A DNA stretch of 64,000 nucleotides, from contig BGKB01000033.1 of NCBI GenBank assembly GCA_003116975.1, forward strand, positions 124,001 to 188,000, written 5' to 3'. This DNA is from Aurantiochytrium sp. KH105 (taxonomy: Eukaryota > Sar > Bigyra > Thraustochytrida > Thraustochytriidae). The notes under the pieces were generated by a model. The model was not told where the DNA came from and made no database searches. It saw only the letters and a program-made list of their open reading frames with translations. The translations under genes were made by a program, and so were the position numbers. Below are positions 26,304 to 49,940 of the stretch, in pieces (positions within the stretch are counted from its first letter, which is position 1; each line of letters opens with the position of its first letter).

Positions 26304-29300
26304 ATGAAGGCCGGTCTGCACGTTGCGGCCACAGCGGCGCCGCTGCTGCTGCTGCTGCTGCTGCTGGCGGCGCTCAGCCAGGAAACCCGGGCGCAGCTGG
26401 ACGCCTGCGGAGATGGCACCTCGCAGCTCCTGGCGCAGGCCAACACGAGGTGCTCGCTCATGAACGTCCCGTCGCCGCTCCTCTCCACGGACACGTGCTG
26501 CGGCACCGCGTCGTCGGGCGGCTCACAAGGGTCCTCCACCCTCGTCAACGAATGCAGAGATATCTACACCAACGCCGCGTACTGCACGTCGGACTGCGAG
26601 TCCCTGGACGAGAACGACGAGCTCGTCATCTACCTCGAAATGGAAAGCACCACCGCCGACGACACCTGCTGCCGCTCCTGCAAGTGCGTCGGCGACCCTG
26701 ACTGCATGGCCTTCGACGGCACTCGCGCCTCTTGGGTGCTCTGTGATGGCCGCGCCAAGGGCTGCAAGATGAAGGAAAAGATCTGTCTCAAACAGGTTGA
26801 CCATCTTGGCAACGCCTGCCAGTGGCTCAAGGATGACGAATCGTGGGAGAGCTTTGACCTTTCCGGAAGCCCGTGCCAGCCGGACTTTGCGCTCTCCGGA
26901 TACCCGACCATGACCATGTACTCCAAGGGCGACTTCCTCGTCAATCTGACGCTCGGCGAGCGAGGCATCATTCGCGAGCTTACCGTCGCCGACGGCAGCG
27001 GCGAGACCTACGCCCTCGGTGCCGCGTCTTGCTTCCAGTACGACCCGCGCACGGTGTCGGGCTTCAACCAAATCTCCAAGGCATGGACCGCATCGTCCGG
27101 ATCCATCCCCCGGACGTGGACCGTCAGCACGCCCAACGATGTCGAGATTCTCTGGCGAGTTGTCGACGACGACACGGGCATTGTCATCGAGGCCGCATGC
27201 ACGCAAGCGCCGGGATCCAGCACGCAGCGCATCGATGTGCAGCGCCTCTACGCCGTTTCCAGCTCGGACCTCAGCACGGACGAGGAGACTGGCTTTTGCG
27301 TGTCGGGCTCAATCGACCGTGGCCTGGCCAGCATCAAGTACTCTGGAACGGACGACTTTGCCTTTCAGCAAAAGTGCCTCGCCAAGAGCCTTCCCGAGCT
27401 CCTCAGCACCTGCAAGGCCATCATCGGTCTCGAGTGCACGCCGTACAGTCTCAACAGCTACATTCGGTACTGGTGTGAGAACGCCGACATTGCCAACACC
27501 GACCTCGATGGCGACGTCGATGCCTGCTACCAAAACTTGGTCTCTTCGGGCTCGAGCGAGGAACGCGCGTCCAAGTGGGTCATGTATCTGTGTCAACTGA
27601 ACCATGTTGACGATGTCGAGTCCTGCATGACTCTCGTCTCGCAGTTCGGCTGGACCGAGTTCCTCAGCAAGTACTCGAACGGCATTATCAGCAGCGAAGA
27701 CACTGACGGTGGCACGGACAGCTGCGCAGCGGATGCTTCTTCGTACACCACGCTCACCGGTGATGATGCACTTTGCGCGCTCGGTGTCTTTGTCGAGTAC
27801 GAGGTCGACGACGGCGATTGGGAGCAAGCCTTTTTCATCCCCTCGACGCTGCCGCCCTGCCAAAGCACCCTGGTCGTCAACGGCGCCGATTACCCGGAGC
27901 TCTTCTTGTACCCGATCCGCTTTCGCCAGTGCTCGCTCGACGCCAGCTGCCTGCGCGAGACGGGCTGCGCGCCATCGGCCGGTTTTTCCGTCCAGCTCGA
28001 GTTCTCCACGGACGAATGCGAGGCCGAGCTTGAGAGCAACGAGTGCTTTGATGCCCAGTGTGCCATGGACAGCGACCTGCTCACCAATCCGCAGGTGGTG
28101 TGCGGCGACACCCCTTCGTCACCCGCCGAAATTGGCGCGTGCGAGTCGTGCTGCGTCACGGACAGTCTCGTCAACGGGGATACCATTGACGAACTCAGCT
28201 GCCGCGAACTGATTACGCAGATCCCATTCTGCGACGCGACCTCTGACCAAGAACTTTGCGACACGCTGCTGGAGGAAAGCTCGAACGCAATGCTCACGAT
28301 GCAAATTGCCAAGAACACGACGAACATGGACTGCTGCCGCTCCTGTGCGGCCTGGGGCGACCCTCTCATCTCGTCCTTCTCCGGCGAGAAGAGCAAGTGG
28401 ATCAACTGCGACGGCCGCAACAGCAAGTGCACCATTAAGGAGAGCGTTTGCTTGAGCCAGGTCGACCACGCCGGCAACCAGTGCGTGTACTCACAAGAGG
28501 CAGCCGATCTCTTGCTCAAGCCCTCTGACATCGGCGCCTACGGCTCTCCCTGCCAATCGAACGTCACTCTTTCCGGCGAGGCTGTGCTTACCATGTACGC
28601 TATCGACGGCCTGAGCGTGAGCATCACCAACGGCGAACGTTCTGTGATTACCCGCCTTCATCTGCAAACCGAGCTCGACACCTTTCATCTCGACGCGAGC
28701 GAATGCTTTGCGGACAACCCGAACGATGCCTGGTCCTCGGAAGGCGGCGCGAAGCTTTCTGCGAGCACGTTGGACGTCGTCTTTGCCGACGGTGACAGCG
28801 AGAACGAAAAGACGTGGACCATTGTCGATGCCAACACGAATGTCTTTATCCGCGCGCGCTGCATCCGCAAGGTGGCCACCGACGGCTTCACGGGCGGCTA
28901 CCGCATGAACATTGAGACACTTATCGACACCGAACCCGAGCGCACTGGCGGCAGTGGCTTTTGCGTCTCTGGCGCCATGGACACGGGTCTCTCGACGATT
29001 AATAGCGCGGGCGAGATCTGCCAGGAGAACATTGAAAGTCTCGTTGACTTTTGCCAGGCCGTGGGCTCGAACACGTGCCAGAGCAAGGACGTGTCCAAGG
29101 TCGTCAAGGCCTGGTGCGACTCGGCAGCGAACATCTTCCCACTGGACCCCAAGTCTTCGGACGCCTGCTTTGCGTACATCAAGCCGAGCCGCAGTAACTC
29201 GAACAAGGTCCTGCACGCCTGGCAAGAACTGTACTGCGAGGCCGTCTCTTCGTACAGGTCCACTGGCCAGTCGGTTGCAGCCTGGGTGGAGCAATGCGTT

Positions 29301-29717
29301 TCTCGATTGCAAAATGACGGATTTGACGCGGTTGTCGCCGAGTATGGAAAGGGCAGCATGACTTCGTCCGCTTCGGTCTACTGCGCCCAGTCTGCGAGTG
29401 ATTACCGCATGAAGGCTGACTCCGACCCGTGCATGCCGGGTGTCACGGTGGAGTACCGCAACGATGATGGCGACTGGGCTGAACTCTTTTTCATCCCGGA
29501 GGATCTTCCGCCATGCAACGGCGAGCTGCAAATCTCAGCCATGGAGTTTCCGGAGCTCTTTGTGCACCCCTTCCGCGTCTACCAGTGCGAGTTGGACACC
29601 TCGACTTGCCCCGTGGACATGCACGAGGACATTTACTGCGCTGCCCGCCAGGGCTTTTCTGTCTCGTACCTTTACTCGTACGAGTCCTCCATTTGCACGA
29701 CTGGATCTTCGCGCTAA
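26304..29717 (+). CDS. Secreted Cys-rich two-module protein, array copy 1
   Basis: First of four paralogues, 1137 residues. A signal peptide with an eight-leucine core (MKAGLHVAATAAPLLLLLLL) ends around residue 30; no transmembrane segment or GPI-type tail follows, so secretion is expected. Module A has its CCRSCKCVGDPDC core at about residue 121 followed by SWVLCDGR; module B repeats the plan at about residue 675 with CCRSCAAWGDPLISSF and WINCDGR. Each module then has paired cysteine segments, a GFC(V)SG strand, a cysteine-bearing helical region and an FFIP...LPPC...FPELF closing block. The GDP...SF core recalls the start of von Willebrand D domains, without the usual His after GDP. Unlike copies 2-4, its module A has KMKEKICLKQVDHLGNAC, close to its own module B. 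The ATG at 26304 is used; the frame upstream begins only at GTG. Function unknown; extracellular matrix, scale or adhesion role is inferred. Confidence 0.87.
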   Translation: MKAGLHVAATAAPLLLLLLLLAALSQETRAQLDACGDGTSQLLAQANTRCSLMNVPSPLLSTDTCCGTASSGGSQGSSTLVNECRDIYTNAAYCTSDCESLDENDELVIYLEMESTTADDTCCRSCKCVGDPDCMAFDGTRASWVLCDGRAKGCKMKEKICLKQVDHLGNACQWLKDDESWESFDLSGSPCQPDFALSGYPTMTMYSKGDFLVNLTLGERGIIRELTVADGSGETYALGAASCFQYDPRTVSGFNQISKAWTASSGSIPRTWTVSTPNDVEILWRVVDDDTGIVIEAACTQAPGSSTQRIDVQRLYAVSSSDLSTDEETGFCVSGSIDRGLASIKYSGTDDFAFQQKCLAKSLPELLSTCKAIIGLECTPYSLNSYIRYWCENADIANTDLDGDVDACYQNLVSSGSSEERASKWVMYLCQLNHVDDVESCMTLVSQFGWTEFLSKYSNGIISSEDTDGGTDSCAADASSYTTLTGDDALCALGVFVEYEVDDGDWEQAFFIPSTLPPCQSTLVVNGADYPELFLYPIRFRQCSLDASCLRETGCAPSAGFSVQLEFSTDECEAELESNECFDAQCAMDSDLLTNPQVVCGDTPSSPAEIGACESCCVTDSLVNGDTIDELSCRELITQIPFCDATSDQELCDTLLEESSNAMLTMQIAKNTTNMDCCRSCAAWGDPLISSFSGEKSKWINCDGRNSKCTIKESVCLSQVDHAGNQCVYSQEAADLLLKPSDIGAYGSPCQSNVTLSGEAVLTMYAIDGLSVSITNGERSVITRLHLQTELDTFHLDASECFADNPNDAWSSEGGAKLSASTLDVVFADGDSENEKTWTIVDANTNVFIRARCIRKVATDGFTGGYRMNIETLIDTEPERTGGSGFCVSGAMDTGLSTINSAGEICQENIESLVDFCQAVGSNTCQSKDVSKVVKAWCDSAANIFPLDPKSSDACFAYIKPSRSNSNKVLHAWQELYCEAVSSYRSTGQSVAAWVEQCVSRLQNDGFDAVVAEYGKGSMTSSASVYCAQSASDYRMKADSDPCMPGVTVEYRNDDGDWAELFFIPEDLPPCNGELQISAMEFPELFVHPFRVYQCELDTSTCPVDMHEDIYCAARQGFSVSYLYSYESSICTTGSSR

Positions 29718-29874
29718 AAGGGAAAAGACAGCAACGCGACTGTCTGTCTGACGCAATTGCTGCGTCTGTCTGGCTGACCCCAAACATCTAGGTATAATAC
29801 AAAATCATTATTCATCATCATCTTCAACATTCTTGGTGGCGTGGACATTTGGTTTGTGCGATCAATACAATCGC

Positions 29875-30050
29875 AAGAATAAATCGGACTTTTCAGGTCT
29901 GCAATCAATGCAATCGTCTGGACTTTGGGATTTTGCGATCCGTGTGATCACTCGGACTTTTCGAGTCTAAATAATCATTGCAGTCGCTCGGACTTTGGCG
30001 ATTTTCCGACCGTCGTAGTCGCCTGGTCATACTCGGACTTTTTAATGATT
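29875..30050. repeat. Degenerate tandem repeat, unit about 35 bp
   Basis: The word TCGGACTTT (or TCTGGACTTT) recurs at about 29884, 29916, 29952, 29987 and 30033, each followed by T-rich sequence and preceded by GCAATC/GTGATCA-like words. The spacing is about 33-46 bp, so this is an eroded minisatellite of about five units. It lies directly downstream of array copy 1 in AT-richer DNA. Confidence 0.55.
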
Positions 30051-32085
30051 CTGCGATGGAAACCATCATGCCCACACTTGAGCAATTCGATTCTGCGATT
30101 TTTCGAGATGAGAAAAGTCCTTTGGGAGCGAGCATTCAATTTGTGCGATCTGCATTGCGAACTCAAAGACTTTGCACAATCTGAGTGACTTTGAATTTGT
30201 ATAATTGAAGCAGAAATAAAACAAGGTGTCCGAGCTCGTTGGGTCCGAGCGCCCGTCTGCCCTCAACGGTGTGCCAATCGTCATTAGGCTCGATCAATAC
30301 CCTCCGCGGTTGTGTGCGTGCGTGCGTGCGAGCTTGCGTGCTCAGGTCAAGCTGCTGCTGAGGCCAGCTGCCAAAGATCCAGATCAAGACGAGCGCGCAG
30401 CTTGCGCTGAGATTGTTGAATTGGAGCTGAGGATCATTGCACCTTGGCCGCTCCTTGTGCTGCAGCCACGAGACTAAGAAGCGCTCGAGCTCACCCCAAA
30501 ATATCGCAAGAATGAGCAAGAGTTCTCGCGAAGCGTGTGGACAGGATTAAGATGAGAGCCGCACAAGCTGTCGATGTGCTCAACAATCTTTCAAGTTTAT
30601 TAGCGAACTCGAATCGTCGCTGCGTCTTCAGGCTGGAAAGGATGGAGAAGTCGAAGGCGCCTTTTATGGAAAAAAAAACCTACAGCCTTGGTTATCATCG
30701 CACAATATCAGTCAAAGACCACGTTCGATCGACCTTGCTTGGGCCACTGCGTGCTTGTGCCTATGATACTTTACCACCTTTCTTCAAAGTATCCTATACC
30801 AAGCTTTCTTCTGCCTGTCTACTATCTGCCTGTCTGCCTTCCTGCTACTCTCGTACCAGAGATTTGCCAGCTCGTATCCTACGAAGCGAAGGTGGTATCT
30901 TCAAGCGGAACAAGGCGCAGCGAGCCACCCACCAATCATCCGCTCAATCCAGTGCAGATGGCACGGTCGAGGGAAGCTCCGACGCCCGTCTTCGTTCGCC
31001 CGTCCGTTGCGCTGCGTTGGGTCCCCCGACCTGACGCCGACGCAACGAGCACAGATAGAAAAGGCGATCGTACAGAAGCCTCGGCTCGATCTCACCCGCC
31101 AACCAAGTCTTTGGCGCACACGGGAAGCCAAGTCGCCACTGGCGGAGGGGCCAGGGGACTCGCTTCCGCGGCCGCCAGCCCACCAAGTTGTCCGAAGCAA
31201 GCAAAACAACTGCAAACGTATCCAGAAGTTCAACTGTCGCACGCGCCCTCCATGACGGCGCGAGGCCGTGAGCTTCGCGGCTTGGGCGGCTTCGTCCAAG
31301 TCCGTTCCGTCGCGCCGTGCTGTGTTTTGCGCAATAAATAACGCCTCGGTCAGGGTCGCACTGTGGCTCGGGGCGTCATGAGCGCGCAAAAAAGTCCCCG
31401 ATCGCGGCAGCGTGCACGGCGAGGCCGCCATCGACCCATCCAAACGGTCGCTGTTGGTGGATCGCAGCCCCGTCATCGTCGTCTACATCTCCAGGTCGAC
31501 GGTCGAGTCGCAGTCGGTGCCGGTCGCCGCGGCGTTCCGGACCGCGCCTGGCGCGGCTTGGACGCGGCTTGGCTTGGACGCGGCGTGCAGCGGCGCCGCG
31601 TCGCTGAAGCTGACACGCACGCAAGAAACTGCACGCGTGGAATGCAATGATACGGAATGGAAAAACCCGCCACCGCTGAGGCGCTCGCTTGCTGCAGCTG
31701 GGTTCGTTGCAGTTGCTGGTGGCTGTGGTCGTGGCCGGCGGAGAATCTTTTTCGATCGCCCATGGGCGAGCTGCAGGAGCTCGCTCGGGAGAGGACGGCG
31801 GCGAACTTCGGGGCGCGGAGGATAGAAATAAAGGGGTGGACTTCGATTTCTTCTTCGACTCCACTCCGCGTCTTCGTAGCTCAGCCGAGTTCATGGAATT
31901 CAGGCTCCAGGTCCTTCGTCTGGATCGGAGAGCTCGGCTCGAGGAGGACGACGAGGACGTCGAGGAGCGCGGCTTCCCGACGCAGGACGACCTGCGACCG
32001 TCGGTGATGGCTGCTTCGCGAGCGGGGAGCGAACGGTGCAGGCCTGGCGCGCTATGTGGCCATCGTTGATCACGCCGCGTCGAAC

Positions 32086-32134
32086 TCAAGGCAAGGCAAG
32101 ACAAGGCAAGGCAAGGCAAGACAAGACAAGGCAA
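32086..32134. repeat. CAAGG/CAAGA pentanucleotide repeat
   Basis: About nine near-identical five-base units with G/A variation at the last base. Non-coding context. Confidence 0.7.
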
Positions 32135-34107: not shown

Positions 34108-34109
34108 GC

Positions 34110-34145
<36 letters not shown>

Positions 34146-34154
34146 CATGCAGGC
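34108..34154. repeat. (CAGG)n tetranucleotide repeat
   Basis: About eleven CAGG units with one interruption (CATG), about 1 kb upstream of array copy 2. Confidence 0.75.
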
Positions 34155-34479
34155 ACCCACCAACCCACCCACCCGCCACCCGCCGCGACCAGTAGCCAGC
34201 GTTCTCGCGCCTCGCTTCTCGCGGCCCGTGACTCTTCCGAGTTTCGTCTCGTCGAGGCGCACGAAGAAGAAAAAGGCGACGGACGGCCGACTCGCCTCGC
34301 CTCGCCCCCCTCCCGCCGGTGCACAAGGACGCGGCGGACACAAGTAGGAAGCGCGGTGCGCCGTCACGGCGCCCTTCCCCAGCGAGCCGGCCAGCCAGTC
34401 ATGGCATGGCAGTCCTTCGGCCGGCCAGCCTCGGCGTGGAGACCTTTCTTTCCCGCTTTCTCTCCTGCTTTCCCGCTTT

Positions 34480-34516
34480 CCTTCTTTCTTTCTCTCTCTC
34501 TCTCTCCCGCTTTCCT

Positions 34517-34549
<33 letters not shown>

Positions 34550-35190: not shown

Positions 35191-38100
35191 ATGGAGCCCA
35201 AAAGCGCGCGAGCGAGACGCGCGCCGGCTACGCTTGCGGCAGCGGCGGCGGCGGCAGGAGTCGCCGTGTTGCTGCTCGCAAACTCCGCCCAAGCTGTCGC
35301 GCCTGCGTGCGGGGCCGGGAGCTCCTCGTACATTTACCAATCCAACACGCGATGCATTGACAATGGATTGAACGGCGTAGAGTCCGCCACCGTCAGCCTC
35401 GATACCTGCTGTGGTACCGCCACCGACACCGGCATCGTCGCAGAAGGAGACACCCAGACCTGCCGAGATGTCACATCCTTGTACCCATACTGCGAAACTC
35501 CCGATGACTGCGACGTCAGTGATACCGACATTCTCACTATCAGCCTCGACATTGCCACCGCAGAAGCCACCGACACATGCTGCCGCTCCTGCAAGTGCGT
35601 CGGCGATCCCGACTGCGTCTCCTTTGACAACACGCCCGCGTCCTGGGTCCTCTGCGACGGCCGTCGCAAGAGCAATTGCAAGCAGGGCCGCTCTCCGTGC
35701 CGTCGTCAGCGCGATCACATGGGCAATCGCTGCAAGTGGATCAAGAAGGACCCCGATTACCTTGGCTGGGATGTTGATGGCAGCCCTTGCCAGGTAAACT
35801 GGGAAAAGTCCGGCCACCCCACAATGCTCATGTATCAAACGAGCCTCTTCTCCGTCAACCTCACGCTCGGCGAGCGTGGTGTCATTGACAGTGTCCTCAT
35901 CACGACCGGTGAATCCGGTGCAGACTACGTTCTCGACGCTGATGCATGCTTCGAGCATGACCCGCGTCTCAACCCCAACGACTACGCCGCCGCCGAAGAA
36001 GCGTGGACCTCGGGCTCGGGTGACGCCATCCCCGATACCTGGAGCGTCAGCCTCCCAAACAGCGTCGAAATCATGTGGAATGTCGTCGACGATGCCACGC
36101 AGTCCATCGTCGAGATCTACTGCACGCAGCCGCCGGGCACCAACCGCACGCGCCTCGACGTCAAGCGCCTCTACAGTCTTGTCAACGAGACTGATGCTGG
36201 CGATGAGGACGGCTTTTGCATCACCAACACCATTGATCGCGGCCTCGCCACCACAAAGTACGCCAACGCCGACGACGACTACGAGTTCCAGCAAAAGTGT
36301 CTCGTGCAGACCCTTCCGGGGCTCCTTGCCACCTGCAAGATCATCATGGGCGCCGAGTGCACGCCGTACAGCCTCGATGACTACATCACCGAGTGGTGCC
36401 AAAACGCCGACATCACCAACACTGACCTTGATGGCGACGTCGACGAGTGCATCCGCATGCTTGTGCAAAAGGGATCTGAAACTGTCCGCGGTGAGCGCTG
36501 GACGCGTTACATTTGCCAACTCAACCGTGTCGACGACGTCGACGAGTGCATGGCTCTCGTTTCTCAGTTCGGCTGGGCCCAGTTCCTCATGGACAACTCC
36601 GATGGTCTCGTCGACTCTGGCAACGAGCTTTCTAGCTGCGCCTCCAGCGTCACTGCCTACTCTACGCTTGAGGGTGAGAACGCGACATGTGCCTTTGGCA
36701 TCTTCGTCGAGTACCTTCCCAGCGGAGAGGCCACTGATGCTGACGCGGACTGGGTACAGGCCTTCTTCATTCCCGCCGACCTTGTCCCGTGCAACAACGA
36801 GCTCGTCATTGACGGTACGCAGTACCCTGAGCTCTTTGCCTACCCTTTTCGCTTTCGCCAATGCACTCTCGACTCGAGCTGCCTTGCCGACTCGGCTTGT
36901 GCTCCCACTCTCGGCTTCGATGCCTCCGTCACCTTTGAATCGACCTGCGAAGATCTCCTGCGCAGTGACGACGAATGCTTCAGCACACAATGCCCCATGA
37001 ACGCGGACGTCGTTTCGAGCCCACAAGCCGTGTGCGAGGATGCTCCTTCGGCCCCGCTCGAGATTGGATCTTGCGACTCGTGCTGCGTCACCGGCGCGAT
37101 CCTTGAATCTGACAGCGGTGACGACGACCTCGATGGCGGTACCACAAGTGAGGTCGTTGACTCAGAGACGTGCCGTCAGCTGATCATTCAGTCTCCCTAC
37201 TGCGACACGACCACGCAGTCGGACATTTGCGATAGTCTCACCGCTGAAGATGGCGAAGCTGTCCTCACTCTCGAGTTTACCATGAACACCACGGAAATGA
37301 GCTGCTGCCGTTCTTGCGCCGCTTGGGGCGATCCGCTCATCTCCAGCTTTTATGGCGAGACCAGCAAGTGGATCAACTGCGATGGCCGCAACAGCCGCTG
37401 CAGCGTCAAAGAGGACGTCTGCGAGAGCCAACTCGACCATGCTGGCAATGCTTGCGTCTACAACGCCACGATTGCCGACCTGATCGAGATTGGTTCCGAC
37501 ATCGGCGCCTACGGCTCACCTTGCCAATCGAACGTGTCCCTCTCCGGTGAAGCCGTTCTCACCATGTACGAGACCGAAGGTTTTCGTGTCACAATTACCA
37601 ACGGCGAGCGTAGTGTCATTACTCATGCCACCATTGAACTTACCAATGACGTCTACGAGCTCGATCCATCGCAGTGCTTCAACGATGATCCGTACGATGC
37701 GTGGACTCTGTCAGACGTCTCGGACCCCACTCAAGGCACTCTTGACCTGACCTTTAGCGACACCGACCGCGACAACGAAAAGCAGTGGACCATTCGTGAC
37801 TCCGACACCGGCATTTTCATGAAGATTGTCTGCCTGCGCCGCGTCTCCCAGGCCGGCTACGTCGGAGGCTACCGTATGAACATTGAGTCCCTCATCGATA
37901 CAGTCGCCAACCGTACCTCGTCCAGTGGATTTTGCGAGACTGGTGCCATCGACTACGGACTCGCCACCATCAACAGCAACGGTGAGATCTGCCAGGAGAA
38001 CATCGAGGACCTTGTCGAATTCTGCCGCGCCGTGGCCGAGCCTTCGTGCATGAAGGAGCAGGTTGCCGACCTTGTGAAGGATTGGTGCGACACTGCCAAT

Positions 38101-38673
38101 GTCTATGTCAGCTATGACAACCACGCCAAAAAGTGCGTCAACGCCATCAAACCCAGCCGTTCAAACTCGAACAAGGTCCTCGCAGACTGGCAGGCCGTCT
38201 ACTGCGATGCCGTGAGCTCGCTCCGTGATGCCTCGCAGTCCGAGGAGACTTGGCAGGCGTTCTGTGTCTCGCGTCTGCAGAACGAGGGCTTCGCCGCCGT
38301 GGTGGCCGAGCTTGGAGATGGTCGTCTCACGTCTTCATCACAGAGCGAGTACTGCGCTAGCTCCGCCACTGAGTACGGACTCAAGTCTGATAGCGATGGT
38401 TGCATGCCTGGCGTCACCGTAGAGTACCAGACCACCGAGGGCAACTGGACCGAGCTTTTCTTCGTGCCGCAAAACCTCCCTCCTTGCGGCGATACCCTCG
38501 AGATCTCCGCCACAGACTTCCCCGAACTCTTTGTGCATCCCATTCGCTTTGTTCAATGCGAGCTGGACACCACGGCCTGCCCCGTGGCCTCTCACACAGA
38601 CTCCTATTGCGCAGCTGCGCAAGGGTACACGATCTCGTACATGTTTACCCAAGCTGACAGCGTTTGCAGTTAA
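35191..38673 (+). CDS. Secreted Cys-rich two-module protein, array copy 2
   Basis: Second paralogue, 1160 residues. The signal peptide has an alanine-rich core (ATLAAAAAAAGVAVLLLANS) with cleavage likely after AQA. Module A core CCRSCKCVGDPDCVSFD is at about residue 129; module B core CCRSCAAWGDPLISSF is at about 703. Module A carries a basic cysteine segment, CKQGRSPCRRQRDHMGNRC, shared with copies 3 and 4 but absent from copy 1 and from every module B. Several N-glycosylation sequons occur at matching places (NLTLGERG, NATIAD, NVSLSG). An Asp/Glu/Ser linker (SDSGDDDLDGG) just inside module B is variable among copies. The protein ends soon after the last cysteine pair with no membrane anchor. 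Most of its length is near-identical to copy 3, pointing to a recent duplication or gene conversion. Role unknown. Confidence 0.87.
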   Translation: MEPKSARARRAPATLAAAAAAAGVAVLLLANSAQAVAPACGAGSSSYIYQSNTRCIDNGLNGVESATVSLDTCCGTATDTGIVAEGDTQTCRDVTSLYPYCETPDDCDVSDTDILTISLDIATAEATDTCCRSCKCVGDPDCVSFDNTPASWVLCDGRRKSNCKQGRSPCRRQRDHMGNRCKWIKKDPDYLGWDVDGSPCQVNWEKSGHPTMLMYQTSLFSVNLTLGERGVIDSVLITTGESGADYVLDADACFEHDPRLNPNDYAAAEEAWTSGSGDAIPDTWSVSLPNSVEIMWNVVDDATQSIVEIYCTQPPGTNRTRLDVKRLYSLVNETDAGDEDGFCITNTIDRGLATTKYANADDDYEFQQKCLVQTLPGLLATCKIIMGAECTPYSLDDYITEWCQNADITNTDLDGDVDECIRMLVQKGSETVRGERWTRYICQLNRVDDVDECMALVSQFGWAQFLMDNSDGLVDSGNELSSCASSVTAYSTLEGENATCAFGIFVEYLPSGEATDADADWVQAFFIPADLVPCNNELVIDGTQYPELFAYPFRFRQCTLDSSCLADSACAPTLGFDASVTFESTCEDLLRSDDECFSTQCPMNADVVSSPQAVCEDAPSAPLEIGSCDSCCVTGAILESDSGDDDLDGGTTSEVVDSETCRQLIIQSPYCDTTTQSDICDSLTAEDGEAVLTLEFTMNTTEMSCCRSCAAWGDPLISSFYGETSKWINCDGRNSRCSVKEDVCESQLDHAGNACVYNATIADLIEIGSDIGAYGSPCQSNVSLSGEAVLTMYETEGFRVTITNGERSVITHATIELTNDVYELDPSQCFNDDPYDAWTLSDVSDPTQGTLDLTFSDTDRDNEKQWTIRDSDTGIFMKIVCLRRVSQAGYVGGYRMNIESLIDTVANRTSSSGFCETGAIDYGLATINSNGEICQENIEDLVEFCRAVAEPSCMKEQVADLVKDWCDTANVYVSYDNHAKKCVNAIKPSRSNSNKVLADWQAVYCDAVSSLRDASQSEETWQAFCVSRLQNEGFAAVVAELGDGRLTSSSQSEYCASSATEYGLKSDSDGCMPGVTVEYQTTEGNWTELFFVPQNLPPCGDTLEISATDFPELFVHPIRFVQCELDTTACPVASHTDSYCAAAQGYTISYMFTQADSVCS

Positions 38674-38830
38674 GGTGGTAGGAGGCCTTTCCGTACATTG
38701 AACAGCTTTTCACATGTGAACGTCAATCGCTGACTCCTTGGGGCTCCAGCAAGTGGTCGGCTCGGTGATTCTCCTTGGTAGCATTTAGCGCCGCGTTGAC
38801 GTGCGACTCACTCAGATAACATATATATGT

Positions 38831-39153
38831 CTTGACATCACTCCTTTATCCATCCATCATCAGCATGATTGATCATCATCCTGTCCCATCTTCATGGCGA
38901 GAAACGCAAGCCCAGAATGGCCCTTTGGGTGCCCCATGCGTTCGTGGTCGTCTCATGCGCTCGAGTTATGTGCCGCAAATTGGACGAAAATCATCTTGAC
39001 ATCACTCCTTATCCATCCATCATCAGCATGATTATCACCCTGTCCCATCTTCATGGCGAGAAACGCAAGCCCAGGGTGGTCCTTTGTGTTACCCAGGCGT
39101 TCGTGGTCGTCTCATGCGCTCGAGTTGTGTGGTGAGAATTGGACGAAATTTAT
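38831..39153. repeat. Direct tandem duplication, unit about 160 bp
   Basis: Copy one runs about 38831-38994 and copy two about 38995-39153. Both start CTTGACATCACTCCTT, share CCCATCTTCATGGCGAGAAA, and end near TTGGACGAAA. They differ by small indels and about a dozen substitutions. Located about 160 bp downstream of array copy 2. Confidence 0.85.
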
Positions 39154-40702: not shown

Positions 40703-43700
40703 ATGAGCACGACGCAAAGCACGCGCCGCACGGCAGCGGCCGCCGTCATGGTCGCAGTAGTGGCCGTACTGGCCAGCACCACAGAGTCAATGGCGCCCTC
40801 GTGCGGGGCCGGAGGCAACTCGTACATCTACCAGTCGAACACGCGCTGCGTGTCGAATGACGGCGTCACCAGTTTGGAGTCGCCGAGTGCGTCTTACTCG
40901 ACCTGCTGTGGCGTCGACACCGATAGCGGCATCGTTTCGGCCGACGACGCCCAGACCTGCCGCGGCGTCACCTCCGTGTACCCATACTGCGAAAGCCCGG
41001 ATGACTGCGATGTCGATGAGGATGATACCCTCATCATCAGTCTTGCCGTCGATACCGCAGATGCCAGCGACACATGCTGCCGTTCCTGCAAGTGCGTCGG
41101 TGATCCCGATTGCGTCTCCTTTGACAGCACACCCGCGTCCTGGGTTCTCTGCGATGGCCGCCGCCAAAACAACTGCAAGCAGGGTCGCTCTCCATGCCGT
41201 CGCCAGCGCGACCACATGGGCAACCGCTGCCAGTGGGTCAAGAAGGACCCTGAATACCTTGGCTGGGATATCGATGGCAGCCCCTGCCAGGTTGACTGGG
41301 AAAAGTCTGGCCATCCCACCATGCTCATGTACCAAACGGGCCTCTTTGCCGTCAACCTCACGCTAGGTGAGCGCGGCGTCATCGACAGTGTCCTCATCAC
41401 GACTGGCGACGCGGGCGACAACTATATTCTCGATTCCGATGCCTGCTTCGAGCACGATCCGCGCCTCAGCCCCAACGACTTCGCCGCCGCCGAGGAAGCA
41501 TGGACTTCGGAGTCTGGCAACGCCATCCCCGATACCTGGAGCGTCAGCACCCCGAACAGCGTCGAAATTATGTGGAAGGTCGTCGACGACGCCACGCAGT
41601 CCATCGTCGAGATCTACTGCACGCAGCCGCCAGGCACCAGCCGCACGCGCCTCGACATCAAGCGCCTCTACAGCCTTGTCAACGAGACCGATGCCAGCGA
41701 CGAGGACGGCTTTTGCGTCACCAACACCATCGACCGCGGCCTCGCCACTACGAAATTCAAGAACGCTGACGATGACTACGAATTTCAGCAAAAGTGCCTT
41801 GTGCAAACCCTTCCCGGAACTCTCGCGACCTGCAAGATCATCATGGGTGCCGAATGCACGCCGTACAGTCTCGATGACTACATCACCGAGTGGTGCCAAA
41901 ATGCTGATATCACCAACACCGACCTCGCTGGCGACGTCGACGAGTGCATTCGCATGCTTGTGAAAAAGGGCACCGAAGCTGAGCGCAGCGAGCGCTGGAC
42001 GCGATACATTTGCCAGCTCAACCGCGTCGACGATGTCGATGAGTGCATGGCTCTCGTCTCTCAGTTCGGCTGGGCTCAGTTTCTCATGGACAACTCCGAT
42101 GGTCTCGTCGACTCTGGCAACGATTCCTCCAGCTGCGCTTCGAGCGTCGCTGCCTACTCCAAGCTCGAGGGCGACAACGCGACGTGTGCCTTTGGCATTT
42201 TTGTCGAGTACCTTCCCAGCGGAGACGCCACTGACGATGACGCGGTTTGGGAGCAGGCCTTCTTCATTCCCGCCGACCTTGTGCCGTGCAACAACGAGCT
42301 CGCCGTGAGCGGTTCAGAATACGCGGAGCTCTTTGCCTACCCGATTCGCTTTCGCCAGTGCTCCCTCGACGCGAGCTGCCTTGCCGACTCGGCGTGCGCC
42401 CCCACCCTTGGCTTTGACGTGTCCATCAACTTTTCCACTGACGACTGCCCGCCCACCACTTCCGATGATGGCAACCTTTGCTTTGACGCGGAGTGCCCCA
42501 TGAACTCGGACGTCGTCTCGAACCCGCAGTCGGTGTGCGAGACCGTCCCGAACGCCCCCCTCGAACTTGGCTCCTGCGAGTCTTGCTGCGTCGCCGATTC
42601 TATTCTTAGCTCCGACGACAGCTCTGATGACAGTGAGGACGAGCAAACGTGCCGTCAGCTCACGGTCCAGGCGCCGTACTGTGACACCAACCAAGAATCG
42701 ATGCAAGACATCTGCGACAAGCTCGTTTCCGAGGAAGGCCAGGGTGTGCTCACTGTCGACTTCACCATGGATACCACCGAGATGAACTGCTGCCGCTCCT
42801 GCGCTGCCTGGGGTGACCCGCTCATCTCGAACTTTTACGGCGAGACCAGCAAGTGGATCAACTGCGACGGCCGCAACAGCCGCTGCAGTGTCAAGGAGAA
42901 CGTCTGCACCGAGCAGCTTGACCATGCCGGTAACGCTTGCGTCTACAACCCTGACATTGCTGCCTTGATCAAGACAGGATCCGACATTGGTGCCTACGGC
43001 TCGCCTTGCCAGTCGAACGTGTCACTCTCGGGCGAGGCCATTCTCACCATGTACGAGACCGACGGCTTCCGTGTCAACATTACCAACGGCGAGCGCAGCG
43101 TCATTACCCATGCGACCATCGAGACTGTCGCGGGCGAGATTTACGCGTTGGACGCCTCGCAGTGCTTTAACGAGGACCCGTACGATGCATGGACCCTGGC
43201 GAGCGGTGAAGACGCGCAATCGGGCTCTCTGGCTCTTGCATTCACCGACACCGACCGCGAGCACGAGAAGAAATGGACTGTGCGGGACACCGCGAGCGGC
43301 ATTTTCATGAAGATCGTCTGCCTGCGCCGCGTCTCCAAGTCTGGCTACATCGGCGGCTACCGCATGAACATCGAGACTCTCATTGACACAGTCACGGATC
43401 GTGTCTCGTCGAGCGGCTTTTGCGAGTCGGGCACGATCGACTATGGTCTTGCCACCATCAACAGCAACGGCGAGGTCTGCCAGGAGAACATCGAGGACAT
43501 TGTTGCATTTTGCCGTGCCGTCGCATCGCCTTCGTGCATGAAGGAGCAAATCGTCGAGCTCGTCAACGACTGGTGCGACACCGCTAATGTCTTCTCCAGC
43601 TACACGAACCATGCTACAAAGTGCGTCAAGGCGATTAAACCAGGCCGCTCCAATAAGAACAAGGTCCTCGCCGACTGGCAGGCCGTTTACTGCGATGCCG

Positions 43701-44170
43701 TCAACTCGCTCCGCGACCCGTCGCAGTCCGAGGAGACCTGGCAAGCACTGTGCGTCTCGCGTCTGCAGAACGAGGGCTTTGCCTCGGTCGTCGCTGATCT
43801 CGGAGACGGTCGCCTCACCTCTTCCTCGCAGAGCTCGTACTGTGCCAACTCCGCGACAGAATACTCGCTCAAGACGGAGAGCGATGGCTGCATGCCGGGT
43901 GTCAGTGTCGAGTACCGGAACTCGGACGGCGACTGGGTGGAGGCCTTCTTCGTCCCCCAGAACCTCCCTCCTTGCGGCGACAGCCTCGATATCCTCGCCA
44001 CGGACTACCCCGAGCTCTTCCTGCACCCCATTCGTTTCCTCCAGTGCGAGCTCGACACCACGGCCTGCCCCGTGGCCTCGCACGAGGATTCTTATTGTGC
44101 AGCTGCCCAGGGCTACACGATCTCGTACATGTTTTCCCAGGCGGGCAGCGTCTGCAACGACGACGTCTAA
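40703..44170 (+). CDS. Secreted Cys-rich two-module protein, array copy 3
   Basis: Third paralogue, 1155 residues, and the closest relative of copy 2. The N-terminus (AAAAVMVAVVAVLASTTES) is a signal peptide with a different sequence from copy 2, while the mature start (CGAGGNSYIYQSNTRC) is almost the same, so signal peptides diverge faster than the body. Cores lie at about residues 122 (CKCVGDPDCVSFD) and 695 (CAAWGDPLISNF). The acidic linker in module B (SSDDSSDDSEDEQTC) differs from copy 2 in length and sequence. The central block from LATTKF to about DNSDGLVDSGN is nearly unchanged relative to copy 2. The protein ends VCNDDV, without anchor or retention signal. As for the family, an extracellular structural role is inferred only. 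Confidence 0.87.
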   Translation: MSTTQSTRRTAAAAVMVAVVAVLASTTESMAPSCGAGGNSYIYQSNTRCVSNDGVTSLESPSASYSTCCGVDTDSGIVSADDAQTCRGVTSVYPYCESPDDCDVDEDDTLIISLAVDTADASDTCCRSCKCVGDPDCVSFDSTPASWVLCDGRRQNNCKQGRSPCRRQRDHMGNRCQWVKKDPEYLGWDIDGSPCQVDWEKSGHPTMLMYQTGLFAVNLTLGERGVIDSVLITTGDAGDNYILDSDACFEHDPRLSPNDFAAAEEAWTSESGNAIPDTWSVSTPNSVEIMWKVVDDATQSIVEIYCTQPPGTSRTRLDIKRLYSLVNETDASDEDGFCVTNTIDRGLATTKFKNADDDYEFQQKCLVQTLPGTLATCKIIMGAECTPYSLDDYITEWCQNADITNTDLAGDVDECIRMLVKKGTEAERSERWTRYICQLNRVDDVDECMALVSQFGWAQFLMDNSDGLVDSGNDSSSCASSVAAYSKLEGDNATCAFGIFVEYLPSGDATDDDAVWEQAFFIPADLVPCNNELAVSGSEYAELFAYPIRFRQCSLDASCLADSACAPTLGFDVSINFSTDDCPPTTSDDGNLCFDAECPMNSDVVSNPQSVCETVPNAPLELGSCESCCVADSILSSDDSSDDSEDEQTCRQLTVQAPYCDTNQESMQDICDKLVSEEGQGVLTVDFTMDTTEMNCCRSCAAWGDPLISNFYGETSKWINCDGRNSRCSVKENVCTEQLDHAGNACVYNPDIAALIKTGSDIGAYGSPCQSNVSLSGEAILTMYETDGFRVNITNGERSVITHATIETVAGEIYALDASQCFNEDPYDAWTLASGEDAQSGSLALAFTDTDREHEKKWTVRDTASGIFMKIVCLRRVSKSGYIGGYRMNIETLIDTVTDRVSSSGFCESGTIDYGLATINSNGEVCQENIEDIVAFCRAVASPSCMKEQIVELVNDWCDTANVFSSYTNHATKCVKAIKPGRSNKNKVLADWQAVYCDAVNSLRDPSQSEETWQALCVSRLQNEGFASVVADLGDGRLTSSSQSSYCANSATEYSLKTESDGCMPGVSVEYRNSDGDWVEAFFVPQNLPPCGDSLDILATDYPELFLHPIRFLQCELDTTACPVASHEDSYCAAAQGYTISYMFSQAGSVCNDDV

Positions 44171-44413
44171 AGCCCAAGCCGTTCCCTGAATCTCTGTCTG
44201 ACTGACTTTTGAATGTCTGAATTGGCTGCGAAGCCACCACCTACATTTTCACTTTATTTTCTGACGCATGAATCATTTTCATTTCTCCACAACTCATTAT
44301 ACTACTACTACTATACACGTTACTGAGAGCAATCGCAATAAGCCGCTTTTTGGCGCCAAAAGCCAAAAATTTGGCTTCTTGGAAGATGACTCTAAAAAAA
44401 AGTTTTACCGACG

Positions 44414-44437
44414 GAGCCATGCTGGCCAGCATGGCTC
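44414..44437. repeat. 24-bp perfect palindrome
   Basis: GAGCCATGCTGG followed directly by its reverse complement, inside the candidate transposable element close to its left arm. It could form a small cruciform or hairpin. Confidence 0.8.
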
Positions 44438-44447
44438 AGGTTTTAAG

Positions 44448-44702
44448 AATTTCTTTCAATTTTCTTTAAGGTAACTCCATATGATATGCGAGGATAACCT
44501 GTGGTGTGTACCCACGTTCTCATGAGAACTCTAGCATTTCCTAGCCTAACGACAAGAGAAACATGATCCTTCTGNAATTTCTTTCAATTTTCTTTAAGGT
44601 AACTCCATATGATATGCGAGGATAACCTGTGGTGTGTACCCACGTTCTCATGAGAACTCTAGCATTTCCTAGCCTAACGACAAGAGAAACATGATCCTTC
44701 TG
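44448..44702. repeat. Exact 127-bp direct duplication around an N (probable assembly join)
   Basis: 44448-44574 and 44576-44702 are identical base for base and are separated only by the single N at 44575. Two contig ends joined without merging their overlap would give exactly this pattern. Confidence 0.85.
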
Positions 44703-45073
44703 TAGTGCATTGGATTGCAGAGCTGCGCTCCAAATCGATCGACAAAGCAGATATTGCAGGCAGTGCACGCGGCCGGTGGCGTCATCGTTCGAGGTTTTTT
44801 GTGCGATTGCAGAGTCATTGCTTGTACTGCTCAATTCTCCTGCACTGGCACTGGCAGCCCGAGTGGTCATTAGACTAGGATAAACTTAGCCATCGCTACC
44901 GTACGTCTTATCGTACGCAAGGAGGGACCGTGACGTTGAGTCCCAAAAAGAATGTCCGATTTTGCCGCTCGGAAATATTAACTTTTTGTAAACAATTGTC
45001 TACGTTATTGCCTGCTTGTGCTCTAATTAATTTTTGGCTTTTGGCGCCAAAAAGCGGCTTATTGCGATTGCTC

Positions 45074-46475
45074 TGACTGTTGCCTTCACTGCTTCATGGC
45101 TCGTTCTTTTACCTCTTGGCGTGCGTCAAGCTGCGAGCCGGTTTCCAGCCTTGGTCCTGTCGTGGGACCGATATCGCCCTTCAATTTTCGCCACCCATTT
45201 CTACCTCCGCTGCCTTGCTCTGCTCTCCAGCAACACTCACTGCCCGCCCCCGCCACGAAGGCCTCGTCGCTGACGACGCCGCTGCCGTCCGCCGCCCAAC
45301 AAACGTGGCTCCCCTCTCCCTTTTCCTTCCTCTCTTTCCACGATCTTTCCCGGCCTTATACACCCCCTAGTAGACCCCTACCGCAAAGTGTGCACTCTCC
45401 CTTTTTCTCCCTTTTCTTCCTTCTCCCTCCCGGTTCACGCGCTCGCGAGTCTCCTCTCTCGCCTTCGCCGCGGCTCATCGGCGGCCGCGCGCTGGTCCCT
45501 CGCCGGCCCCTCCCTCCCTCCATCTCTCCCTCCCTCCCTCCCTCCCTCCCTCCCTCCCTGCGCCCCTGCCGAGCGTTGCTCCGAGTCCCGCGCGGACGCC
45601 GTCACGGGGCCGCCTTCGACTGCGGACGCGCGGAAGACAGAAGAGGAAGCCCTCGCGCTTTGATTTTGTCCCGCTGTGGGGGCTCCGACTCGGCCGCTGC
45701 CCCCCCTCCCTCTCTCATCTCCGCTCTGCTCGGCGCCGCTCGCTGCTCTGCTCTGCTCTGCTCTGCTCTGCTCTGCTCTGCTCTGCTCTGCTCTGCTCTG
45801 CTCTGCAGCTGCTCTGCGCAAGCGTGACCGACTGCAAGCGCGCGCGCGCAGCCTGGCTGCTTCTCTGCACGCCTGCAGTGCTTCCCTGCACGCCCGGCCG
45901 CCCGCCTGCCAGCCTTCGGGACGCTCGCCGGGCCCCTCGGGCACCCACGCGGCGGCATCGCCATGCCGAGCCGCGTCTTGCGAAGCCTCTCCTCTCCTCT
46001 CCAATCCGAACACGCGGACAGAGGCATGCGAGCTGTGCTCGCGCACGCGCTGCGCGTCCGTCCGGCCGGCCGCAGCTGCAGCTGGCTGGCTGGCCACTGC
46101 AATCCATCAATCGATCGATCGATTGGTCAATCAAGTGGAGCGAAGCCGTGGCTGGTGACACTCCACGACCACTCCTTGTGCACCTTTTGCCATTAATCAA
46201 GTATACATTCGTTCCTCGTCTGTATGTATGTAATACAAAAGCAGAGTCGCCTGCCTGCCCCTGCATTTCGCAGACAGCAAACCCGAGCAAACCCGAAAGA
46301 AAAGCGCGTGCGCGCCCGCTCGCCCTAGACAGCTTCGGCGTCCGCCCGTCCGTCCGTCCGTACGTACGTACGCCGGTCTGCTCCGCGCGGGAGCTCTCGC
46401 CGCCGCATCCAAGGGACCGCCCCGCGCGCGGGGAGCTCGTAGCTGGCACGTGCACGGCGAGGAGGTCGCGACGCG
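45074..46475. other. Leader region of array copy 4, pyrimidine-rich
   Basis: C/T-rich stretch with (CTCC)n at about 45520-45560 and a pentanucleotide array listed separately. A GATC run (about 46107-46122) and GTCC/GTAC runs (about 46345-46371) follow. No gene was seen; antisense and sense frames here are repeat-driven. Promoter of copy 4 expected. Confidence 0.45.
45746..45806. repeat. (CTCTG)n pentanucleotide microsatellite
   Basis: About twelve uninterrupted CTCTG units, roughly 670 bp upstream of the start of array copy 4. Confidence 0.85.
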
Positions 46476-49400
46476 ATGCACGCCATGGTGGCCGGCCCCG
46501 TGCTGCTCGCGACGCTCCTCGTGGCAGGGCAAATCGGTGCGGGAGATGCCCAAGCTTCGCAATGCTCTTTAGGCTACACCACCATCTATGCCGTGCAACA
46601 ACGCTGCTCTACAGAATCCGGCTTTTCCGGCAGCGTCTCGTACAATACTTGCTGTGGCGTCCGGGATAGCGATTTTGTGTTCTTTGAAGATGACAGAGGC
46701 GTCTGCACGTACTACCAGAATGCAGATGGTTACTGCACCAGCGTTGAGGACTGCGATGTTGACGAGGGCGACGTTCTCACCATTAGCCTCACGTTCTCGA
46801 CCACTTCGGAGAGCGACACGTGCTGCCGTACCTGCAAATGCGTCGGTGACCCCGACTGTGTCTCCTTCAATAACACTCCAGCGTCATGGGTTCTCTGCGA
46901 CGGCCGCCGCAAGGGCGATTGCAAGCAGGGACGCTCTCCGTGCCGCCGGCAACGCGACCATATGGGCAACCGCTGTCAATGGCTCAAGAACGACCCAGAC
47001 TACCTTGGCTGGGAGGCCAGCGGCAGTCCGTGCCAGGTTAACTGGGAGAAGTCGGGCCACCCGACCATGCTCATGTACGAATCGGGCCTCTTCTCCGTCA
47101 CCCTCACGCTCGGCGAGCGCGGCGTTATCGACAGCCTTTCGGTGACCACTGGCGACACCGGCGACAGCTTCGAGCTCGACGCTGATGCTTGCTTTGAGCA
47201 TGACCCCCGGCTCACCCCCGATGATACGTCCGCTGCCAGCGAGGCTTGGACTTCCGCATCGGGCAGCGCAATCCCTGACGCGTGGACCGTTAGCACCCCA
47301 AACAGCGTCGAAATCATGTGGAAGGTCGTGGATGATACCACAGGCACGAACATGCACATCTACTGCACGCAGCCCCCCGACTCTGAACGGACGCGTCTTG
47401 ATGTCAAGCACCTTTTCACGCTCACTGACGAGTCTGAAGCAGAAGACGAAGACGGCTTTTGCGTGACTAGTACCATCGACCGCGGTCTTGCCACGACAAA
47501 GTACGAGGATGCCACGGACGACTATGAGTTCCAGCAAAAGTGTCTTGTTCAGACCCTCCCTGACCTCCTCGCCACCTGCAAGATCATCATGGGGGCCGAC
47601 TGCACCCCTTATAATCTCGACACCTACGTTACCGAGTGGTGCCTTGCCGCCGATATTACCTATACCGATCTTGCTGGTGACAGAGACGAGTGCATTAGCA
47701 TGCTCGTCACCACCGGCTCCGAGAGCGACCGCGGCGAACGTTGGACTCGATACTTGTGCCAGCTCAACCTCGTCGATGACGTTAACGAATGCATGGCGCT
47801 TGTGTCCCAGTTCGGTTGGGCGCAGTTCCTCGTGAGCAACTCCAACGGCCTTGATCAATCGGAGGACAGCCTTACCGCAAGCTGCGCATCGAGCGTAGCT
47901 GCATACTCGAAGCGCGAGGGTGATAGTGCGGTTTGCGCCTACGGCGTCTTTATCGATTACCTCGTGAGCGGGACCGTTGGTGAGGACGATGCCGTGTGGG
48001 AGCAGGCTTTCTTCATTCCGTACAGTCTGCCGCCCTGCAATGGCCAGCTCCTCATTGATGGCACCCAATACCCTGAGCTCTTTGCTTACCCTATTCGCAT
48101 GTCCCGGTGCTCTCAAAGCATTGATTGCGTTGCAGATCTGGAATGCGCTCCGATTCCTGGTTTCTCGGTGTCCTTCGGCTTTAGCACAGAGAATTGCACG
48201 GTGAATCCGGACGGTGAAGTATATTCTTCAGATTTGTACGTAGAGGAAGATTGTTTCGCCTCGGAATGCGAAGCGAATGAGGACGTCATCTCGAATCCGC
48301 AAACCGTTTGCGAAGCCGTCCCCGACAGCCCGCTCGAGCTCGGCACTTGCGAGTCGTGCTGTGTCGCCGAGACACTCCTTGGAGTTGACGACTCCGATAG
48401 CTCGGACACACCACGATGCCGCGAGGTGTATACCCAAGAAGCGTACTGCAATACTCTCGACGAATCCTTGACCGAAACCTGTGCAAGGCTCATTTCCGAG
48501 GAAGGTGAAGGTGTTCTCACTGTCGAGCTCAGCATGGACTCCTCCGAGTTGGATTGCTGCCGCACATGCGCCGCCTGGGGTGACCCGCTCATTTCCAGCT
48601 TTTCTGGCGAAACTTCCAAGTGGATTAACTGCGATGGCCGGAACAGTAACTGCAAAGTGAAAAAGAACGTCTGCAAGAAGCAGCGTGACCAAGCTGGCAA
48701 CAAATGCGTCTACAATGCCACGATTGCCGAACTGATCGAGATTGGCTCCGACATTGGCGCCTATGGCTCGCCTTGTCAATCCGATGTGTCTCTGTCGGGC
48801 GAGGCCATTCTCACCATGTACGAGATCGAAGGTTTCCGTATCAACATCACCAACGGCGAGCGCAGTGTCATCACCCACGCGACCATCGAGACTTTGACTG
48901 ACGTGTTCACCTTTGACTCGTCGCTGTGCTTCAATGAGGATCCCTATGAAGCGTGGAGTTCGGCGAGCGGCGACGACGTTGCGGACGGCCCCCTCGCTCT
49001 TATGTTCGCCGATACGGATCGGGAGCACGAGAAAAAATGGACGGTGCGCGACTCCGAGAGCGGCATCTTCATGAAGATCGTCTGTCTGCGCCGCGTGTCC
49101 CAAGCTGGCTTCGTCGGAGGCTACCGCATGAACATTGAATCTCTCATCGACACAGTCACCAACCGCACCACATCCAGCGGATTCTGCGAGACCGGTACGA
49201 TCGACTACGGCCTTGCCACCATCAACAAGAATGGCGATGTGTGCCAGCAAAACATCGAGGGCATTGTTCAGTTCTGCAGCGCCGTCGCATCGCCCTCGTG
49301 CCAGCAAAGTCAAGTCACTGAGAACATCAAGAACTGGTGCGACACTGCCAATGTCTTTGTTCAGGACGTCAACCATGCCCAGAAATGCGTTAAAGCCATT

Positions 49401-49940
49401 GACCCCTCGCGATCGAATGACAACAAGGTTTTGGCCGACTGGCAGGCTGTCTATTGCGACGCGGTGAACTCGCTTCGTGACCCGTCGCAGACTGAGGATA
49501 CCTGGCGCGCGCTTTGCGTATCTCGCCTGCAGAATGAGGGTTTTGCCTCGGTTGTCGCTGATCTCGGCGATGGTCGTCTCACATCTTCTTCACAGAGTGC
49601 GTACTGCGCTGCCAATGCCACTGTGTACACGCCCAAGTCAGACATTGATGGCTGCATGCCAGGCGTTAGCGTGGAATACCGGAATGTGACGGAAAGTGAC
49701 GCGTGGACAGAAGTCTTTTTCATCCCGCAGAGTCTCCCGCCCTGCGGCGACAGGCTCGAGATTCTTGCCACAGACTTTCCTGAGCTCTTTCTCAACCAGA
49801 TTCGATTCCGCCAATGCGAGCTCAACACGACCGCTTGCCCTGTAGAGACGCACACGGATTCGTACTGTGCAGCCGCCCAAGGGTACACCGTCTCGTACAT
49901 GTATTCGCAATCCACCAGCGTCTGCAACAATGATGCCTGA
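46476..49940 (+). CDS. Secreted Cys-rich two-module protein, array copy 4
   Basis: Fourth paralogue, 1154 residues. Signal peptide MVAGPVLLATLLVAGQIGAG, cleavage probably near GDAQA. Cores: module A at about residue 114 and module B at about 694. Both cores read CCRTC, whereas copies 1-3 read CCRSC in both modules, so the same change occurs twice in this gene. Module A keeps the basic CKQGRSPCRRQRDHMGNRC segment; module B has an unusually basic counterpart, CKVKKNVCKKQRDQAGNKC. The linker into module B is longer than in the other copies (about VNPDGEVYSSDLYVEEDC). Codon use is more mixed than in copies 2 and 3, suggesting longer independent evolution. No membrane anchor. A second ATG at codon 4 could also serve as start. 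Confidence 0.87.
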   Translation: MHAMVAGPVLLATLLVAGQIGAGDAQASQCSLGYTTIYAVQQRCSTESGFSGSVSYNTCCGVRDSDFVFFEDDRGVCTYYQNADGYCTSVEDCDVDEGDVLTISLTFSTTSESDTCCRTCKCVGDPDCVSFNNTPASWVLCDGRRKGDCKQGRSPCRRQRDHMGNRCQWLKNDPDYLGWEASGSPCQVNWEKSGHPTMLMYESGLFSVTLTLGERGVIDSLSVTTGDTGDSFELDADACFEHDPRLTPDDTSAASEAWTSASGSAIPDAWTVSTPNSVEIMWKVVDDTTGTNMHIYCTQPPDSERTRLDVKHLFTLTDESEAEDEDGFCVTSTIDRGLATTKYEDATDDYEFQQKCLVQTLPDLLATCKIIMGADCTPYNLDTYVTEWCLAADITYTDLAGDRDECISMLVTTGSESDRGERWTRYLCQLNLVDDVNECMALVSQFGWAQFLVSNSNGLDQSEDSLTASCASSVAAYSKREGDSAVCAYGVFIDYLVSGTVGEDDAVWEQAFFIPYSLPPCNGQLLIDGTQYPELFAYPIRMSRCSQSIDCVADLECAPIPGFSVSFGFSTENCTVNPDGEVYSSDLYVEEDCFASECEANEDVISNPQTVCEAVPDSPLELGTCESCCVAETLLGVDDSDSSDTPRCREVYTQEAYCNTLDESLTETCARLISEEGEGVLTVELSMDSSELDCCRTCAAWGDPLISSFSGETSKWINCDGRNSNCKVKKNVCKKQRDQAGNKCVYNATIAELIEIGSDIGAYGSPCQSDVSLSGEAILTMYEIEGFRINITNGERSVITHATIETLTDVFTFDSSLCFNEDPYEAWSSASGDDVADGPLALMFADTDREHEKKWTVRDSESGIFMKIVCLRRVSQAGFVGGYRMNIESLIDTVTNRTTSSGFCETGTIDYGLATINKNGDVCQQNIEGIVQFCSAVASPSCQQSQVTENIKNWCDTANVFVQDVNHAQKCVKAIDPSRSNDNKVLADWQAVYCDAVNSLRDPSQTEDTWRALCVSRLQNEGFASVVADLGDGRLTSSSQSAYCAANATVYTPKSDIDGCMPGVSVEYRNVTESDAWTEVFFIPQSLPPCGDRLEILATDFPELFLNQIRFRQCELNTTACPVETHTDSYCAAAQGYTVSYMYSQSTSVCNNDA

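Follow-up and report, generated by a model that had tools for sequence, protein, structure and literature searches.

VWD modules occur in secreted multimers and adhesives, and the adhesive trail proteins of the diatom Amphora are reportedly of the VWD/GDPH-domain type. The GDPH domain is described as named after the motif Gly-Asp-Pro-His (PMC8027222), and the tandem-enriched vWD family described for the diatom Seminavis robusta is held to be adhesive and includes 61 vWD proteins that also carry a GDPH domain (PMC7335047). In the stickleback, spiggin, a MUC19-derived tandem VWD array, is reported to make the nest glue (PMC4989455). Thraustochytrids, for their part, are described as attaching through an ectoplasmic net (PMC12221091) and as carrying polysaccharide scales (PMC11642839). 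Here we analyze a 64,000-nucleotide stretch of the thraustochytrid Aurantiochytrium sp. KH105 (C33:124001-188000, hereafter the window; the assembly comprises 76 Mb in 367 contigs), which contains a tandem array of four genes for large, cysteine-rich proteins that are predicted to be secreted. Each protein is built of two modules, and each module is predicted to hold a divergent VWD-like domain. Our best guess is that the array proteins have a surface, matrix or adhesion role.

An earlier note, made from the sequence alone, had described four plus-strand genes of nearly equal size (1137-1160 residues) with the same cysteine pattern, and open reading frames (ORFs) of that size lie where it placed them. 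A search of the organism's own genome with gene 3 found all four again on contig C47, in unchanged order and with proteins 97-99% identical, and we take C47 to be the other haplotype of the array. The genes, with the protein identity of each C47 allele, are as follows.

26304..29717, plus strand: gene 1, 1137 residues from its ATG, two modules; C47 allele 98.5%
35191..38673, plus strand: gene 2, 1160 residues, two modules; C47 allele 98.1%
40703..44170, plus strand: gene 3, 1155 residues, two modules; C47 allele 98.7%
46476..49940, plus strand: gene 4, 1154 residues, two modules; C47 allele 96.8%

Protein lengths were counted from the first plausible ATG; for gene 1 the mechanical ORF starts upstream of the chosen ATG at 26304, with a GTG at 26274. 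The four proteins share 51-79% pairwise identity and are under purifying selection, with ratios of nonsynonymous to synonymous substitution (dN/dS) of 0.15-0.32 (Nei-Gojobori, own script). Each contains 68 Cys, and of the 69 alignment columns that hold Cys, 67 are Cys in all four proteins. No further paralogue fragment was found in the window by tblastn with the four proteins (E<=1e-3).

Comparison with C47 also bears on gene integrity. Within the four ORFs, insertions and deletions (indels) relative to C47 are solely of 3 or 6 bases, and third codon positions account for 64/78, 74/95, 65/78 and 78/116 of the substitutions in genes 1 to 4, respectively. The three gaps between the genes are overlapped by 25 ORFs that reach 150 residues or more. 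Of these, 23 carry at least one indel whose length is not divisible by 3, and the other two reach just 57 and 19 bases into a gap; the gap ORFs show no steady third-position excess, the highest share being 10/20 (ORFs with at least 20 substitutions). Given this indel and codon-position pattern, the four array genes are real, and the gaps between them contain no uninterrupted gene of at least 150 residues, as the earlier note had proposed in finding no firm gene there; the gaps may still hold a short or intron-rich gene. An assembly artefact was rejected since a second contig has the same array with diverged sequence, pseudogenes were rejected on selection and the frame-keeping indels, and missed genes of at least 150 residues in the gaps were rejected on their frame-breaking indels. 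The note's claim that a large, Cys-rich, secreted-looking protein has expanded in a cluster is borne out.

The proposal that all four proteins have signal peptides and lack membrane anchors agrees with a hydropathy heuristic, which finds a hydrophobic N-terminal segment of the signal-peptide type in each:

26304..26393, plus strand: gene 1 signal-peptide-like segment, end estimated
about 35191-35298, plus strand: gene 2 signal-peptide-like segment
about 40703-40792, plus strand: gene 3 signal-peptide-like segment
about 46476-46553, plus strand: gene 4 signal-peptide-like segment

Past residue 60, no 19-residue window in the four proteins exceeds a mean hydropathy of 1.46. Across the family described below, 29 of 30 ORFs (alleles counted apart) have a signal-like N-terminus by hydropathy only, and the four window proteins are predicted to be secreted.

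Each window protein is an internal duplicate, with two modules of ∼540 residues that are about 30% identical to one another. A module consists of an N-terminal Cys cluster, a VWD-like segment, a helical Cys-rich part and C-terminal strands; a Cys-rich insert separates the GDP motif (Gly-Asp-Pro) from the beta core. An alignment of 25 family modules has 30 columns with Cys in half or more of the rows and 22 with Cys throughout. The VWD-like segments, bounded by the CC before the GDP motif and a point about 20 residues past GFC, and the remainder of the one module that was modeled are listed here.

26667..27377, plus strand: gene 1 module a, VWD-like segment
28332..29018, plus strand: gene 1 module b, VWD-like segment
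35578..36300, plus strand: gene 2 module a, VWD-like segment
37303..37989, plus strand: gene 2 module b, VWD-like segment
41075..41797, plus strand: gene 3 module a, VWD-like segment
42788..43477, plus strand: gene 3 module b, VWD-like segment, inside the modeled region 42518-44167
43388..44167, plus strand: gene 3 module b, Cys-rich helical stretch that follows the VWD-like segment, with the C-terminal strands (low-confidence model)
46821..47543, plus strand: gene 4 module a, VWD-like segment
48555..49241, plus strand: gene 4 module b, VWD-like segment

The assignment of these segments as VWD-like is based on a predicted fold and on the GDP motif. In the predicted structure of gene 3 module b, the core looks similar to the VWD fold that mucins and VWF have, and the nine best entries in the VIA structural list all belong to the VWD superfamily, with the next entry 2.5 Z lower. 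Two of the nine are Cypridina luciferase and katydid green pigment protein. Across 36 VWD-like segments of the family, C-x3-GDP-x4-F and G[FY]C are each present in 36/36 and F-x-G in 29/36, and the usual spacing of the GDPHxxTFDG-type motif is kept, with its His replaced in every segment. As a comparison set we took PF00094 domains of bacteria, from the phylum that surrounds a Myxococcales metagenome-assembled genome (23 of 282 genomes matched); 28 of the 30 loci in this set have an in-frame domain, 25 of these with GDPH near the start. Because frames were kept only where they contained one of four short VWD-type strings, by which L068 and L072 were dropped, this set is biased in favor of the motif. 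When the 36-segment family profile was aligned to it with hhalign, wGDP....FDG fell on GDPHxxTFDG with a score of 27.4 (E 0.0017), as compared to 18.8 for the best of 100 column shuffles, 17.8 for the reversed profile, 9.4 for the N-terminal part of the module and 10.3 for the part after the VWD-like segment.

The array belongs to a wider family, with at least 48 matches on 11 contigs of the same genome; the search scored 40 of 66 candidates, so this count is a lower bound. By our own grouping of the matches there are at least 21 loci per haplotype: four (C33/C47), eight (C110 and C53/C224), three (C11/C18), five (C146/C42) and one (C30/C87), with haplotypes paired by identity for 13 gene pairs (94-99%) and by order otherwise. 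All loci of any one cluster run in one direction. A quick maximum-likelihood analysis (no bootstrap) of 35 modules yields a tree in which a single branch separates all a-modules from all b-modules (approximate likelihood-ratio support, SH-aLRT, of 98), and the clusters of individual contigs group together within each side. This split and the grouping by contig fit a two-module gene that predates the clusters, which would then have grown by local tandem duplication. The earlier description of the locus as four paralogues missed both the two-module build and the other genomic clusters. Two family members have further features. L034 (C11:221500-227500; ORF 817-4932, minus strand) encodes 1371 residues with a mucin-like layout, in which a 204-residue repeat (49% Pro, 27% Thr) lies between the two modules. 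L033 (C30:57000-62500; ORF 1369-4257, plus strand) encodes 962 residues with one VWD-like module, a 98-residue Pro/Thr/Glu repeat and, at the C-terminus, a VWA domain (PF00092, 36.1 bits vs a cut-off of 23.8); its single module groups with the a-modules on a long branch.

Several results weigh against a VWD-based matrix. The structural model is weak (mean predicted local distance difference test, pLDDT, 54; predicted template modeling score, pTM, 0.35), with a pLDDT below 50 around the GDP motif. Foldseek with this model returned nothing at E<=1e-3, and 0 of its 50 best rows are VWD by title. The Pfam VWD family (PF00094) is above its cut-off in 0/4 window proteins, 0/36 segments and 0/5 paralogues (five of the eight first named were scanned). 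GDPH itself occurs in 0/36 segments, as does any CGLC-like motif, so that mucin-type multimerization through CGLC is unsupported. The hhalign match to the bacterial set has a probability of just 15.6% over 16 columns; a loosened alignment reaches the domain end without confidence, and a global one fails. The family profile matched no PDB sequence, and the VWA and Pro/Thr features sit in two paralogues elsewhere, outside the four window genes. Less informative is the PF00094 profile, which found nothing over the own genome but matched 0/14 control genomes either, and likewise nothing over five bacterial genomes. The earlier note could match the proteins to no described system and had proposed a comparison with structure models. 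Sequence searches indeed fail, but the core is VWD-like in the predicted structure and diatoms have a tandem VWD family; among structural comparisons, Foldseek was empty at its threshold and the VIA list pointed to the VWD superfamily with all of its top entries.

Other searches gave little. Neither C8 and TIL after the VWD-like segment nor a cystine knot has a Pfam match in the four window proteins and five paralogues; a C8 identity of the helical Cys-rich part finds no support, though a VIA list is no means of excluding it. Nothing credible was returned from PDB by sequence, from Rfam on the window, from a viral structure library, or from IMG/VR and GTDB contigs searched with profile A2. Matches to Collar (E 0.0027, one protein) and ToxB_N (E 0.0073, 1/36 segments), both below the Pfam cut-off, are scattered weak rows that we take as chance.

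Apart from the family, the array flanks carry eukaryotic genes (kinesin, Nup54, ESCO). A WASP-like ORF with WH1 and P21-Rho-binding domains lies at 2434-4440 (plus strand). At 54677-56344 (minus strand) there is a PhyH-like dioxygenase domain that is preceded by a long basic extension at the N-terminus. Two-copy tandem duplications occur in the 3' flanks of gene 2 (38830-39148; 159 bp, 89% matches) and gene 3 (44447-44702; 128 bp, 99% matches), and 48 copies of GCAA at 50469-50660, soon after gene 4. Elsewhere in the genome, L035-L039 (C72, C155, C290) are polyunsaturated fatty acid (PUFA)-synthase genes. Pieces of PfaA-type synthase match at 930 bits (profile 6-1035, C72/C155) and 456 bits (profile 1759-2567, C290/C61); none reaches the whole-family cut-off, and 11/14 control genomes match too, none over the cut-off. 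The split of these matches between contigs on both haplotypes perhaps reflects an assembly break at carrier-protein repeats. PfaD-type reductases are above the cut-off at four places, two loci on each of two haplotypes, at 710.6 and 682.3 bits (controls: 3/14 match, one over the cut-off). The PfaA-type and PfaD-type matches suggest a thraustochytrid, and the opposed PfaA/PfaD arrangement seen on C72 is also that of Schizochytrium.

We propose, with a probability of about 55%, that the array encodes secreted, Cys-rich, two-module VWD-like proteins that build up an adhesive or matrix, either on the cell or around it. From the VWD adhesives of other organisms and the net and scales of thraustochytrids, we infer the disulfides, the assembly, the adhesion and the place in the cell. 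The proteins would pass through the endoplasmic reticulum and Golgi, fold into disulfide-held rods and associate with family members, including the Pro/Thr-linker and VWA paralogues. CGLC being absent, assembly may use other cysteines or polysaccharide. The product might be an insoluble settlement glue, part of the ectoplasmic net or a scale-layer binder, its dose and variety supplied by tandem duplication as in stickleback spiggin. More doubtful is a broader version, in which a labyrinthulomycete has evolved its own mucin/VWF-like network (at least 21 loci, mostly two-module, with Pro/Thr-linker and VWA members) as the adhesive matrix of the net or scale layer, independent of animal mucins and derived from or arisen beside the diatom GDPH adhesives.

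Rather than an external glue, the proteins could be structural or binding components of the wall scales that labyrinthulomycetes make in the Golgi; the VWD-like core would then be a scaffold for sulfated polysaccharide. The host group is described as having scales and sulfated-polysaccharide walls (PMC11642839, PMC12221091), and the absence of a membrane anchor from the four window proteins suits this role; yet the open-licence literature found names no scale protein, as far as its available text goes, and no carbohydrate-binding family is above the Pfam cut-off in the four proteins and five paralogues, and we consider this rather unlikely. The VWD likeness could also have arisen by chance from a poor model, the module having a fold of its own; this would be compatible with any functional reading. 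The low pLDDT, the negative Foldseek and Pfam searches and the low hhalign probability all speak for it, whereas the agreement of nine of nine top VIA entries, the 2.5 Z gap below them, the motif in every segment and a profile score above 100/100 shuffles make it unlikely.

Diversified recognition proteins, for mating, self or prey, would explain arrays as a source of variety, and both the number of loci and the divergent members within clusters would suit them, as would the mating role also suggested for diatom GDPH proteins in what is available of that work (PMC8027222). Purifying selection between the window paralogues, the third-position excess between haplotypes and a nearly invariant Cys frame speak against this, and it seems improbable. 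Storage or ligand binding, as in the vitellogenin/luciferase branch of the VWD superfamily, is brought to mind by the luciferase and pigment protein among the best structural entries; with no lipoprotein or enzyme domain above the Pfam cut-off in the window proteins, five paralogues and 36 segments, and with two paralogues of mucin- and VWF-like layout, it is very improbable. The adhesive or matrix role remains our preferred reading.

Thraustochytrids are marine decomposers used for docosahexaenoic acid production, and in the literature found, few proteins of their ectoplasmic net, attachment glue or scales are known. A conserved tandem family with secreted-looking products and a mucin-like core would offer proteins to look for directly by proteomics and genes to remove. 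If the proposal is true, VWD-based secreted adhesives would occur in heterotrophic stramenopiles besides diatoms and animals. In titles and opening abstracts of the open-licence literature, no description of this family was found, and VWD together with stramenopiles led to the Seminavis work only (PMC7335047). Tandem VWD-based secreted families are already known; the divergent, two-module, CGLC-less thraustochytrid form was not found described.

The closest candidates by host are those for the ectoplasmic network of Aurantiochytrium limacinum, which are likewise thraustochytrid, adhesin-like and predicted to have signal peptides, but which the available text describes by other likenesses (PMC12221091); "von Willebrand" is absent from its main text, and the comparison is by description only. 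Spiggin and MUC19 share with the window family a tandem array, secretion and repeated VWD, the C1 and C2 forms of spiggin having two VWD domains each in the account available (PMC4989455), while the window family comes from an unrelated lineage and has neither a C8/TIL Pfam match nor a CGLC-like motif. To MUC2, MUC5AC and VWF, the likeness lies in the VWD fold of the modeled core, in the Pro/Thr linker between the modules of L034 and in the VWD-like module plus VWA of L033. Unlike those proteins, the family has short, nearly Ser-free linkers and a Cys-rich insert from the GDP motif to the beta core, and is without CGLC or a matched C8, TIL or cystine knot. The diatom VWD/GDPH proteins differ in being annotated as vWD, where Pfam VWD misses the window family (again compared by description only), and in the GDPH His, which the two-module window family lacks in all 36 segments. 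What the two groups share, as far as the diatom work is available, is a stramenopile host, an extracellular location, the GDP motif, tandem expansion and presumed adhesion (PMC7335047, PMC8027222).
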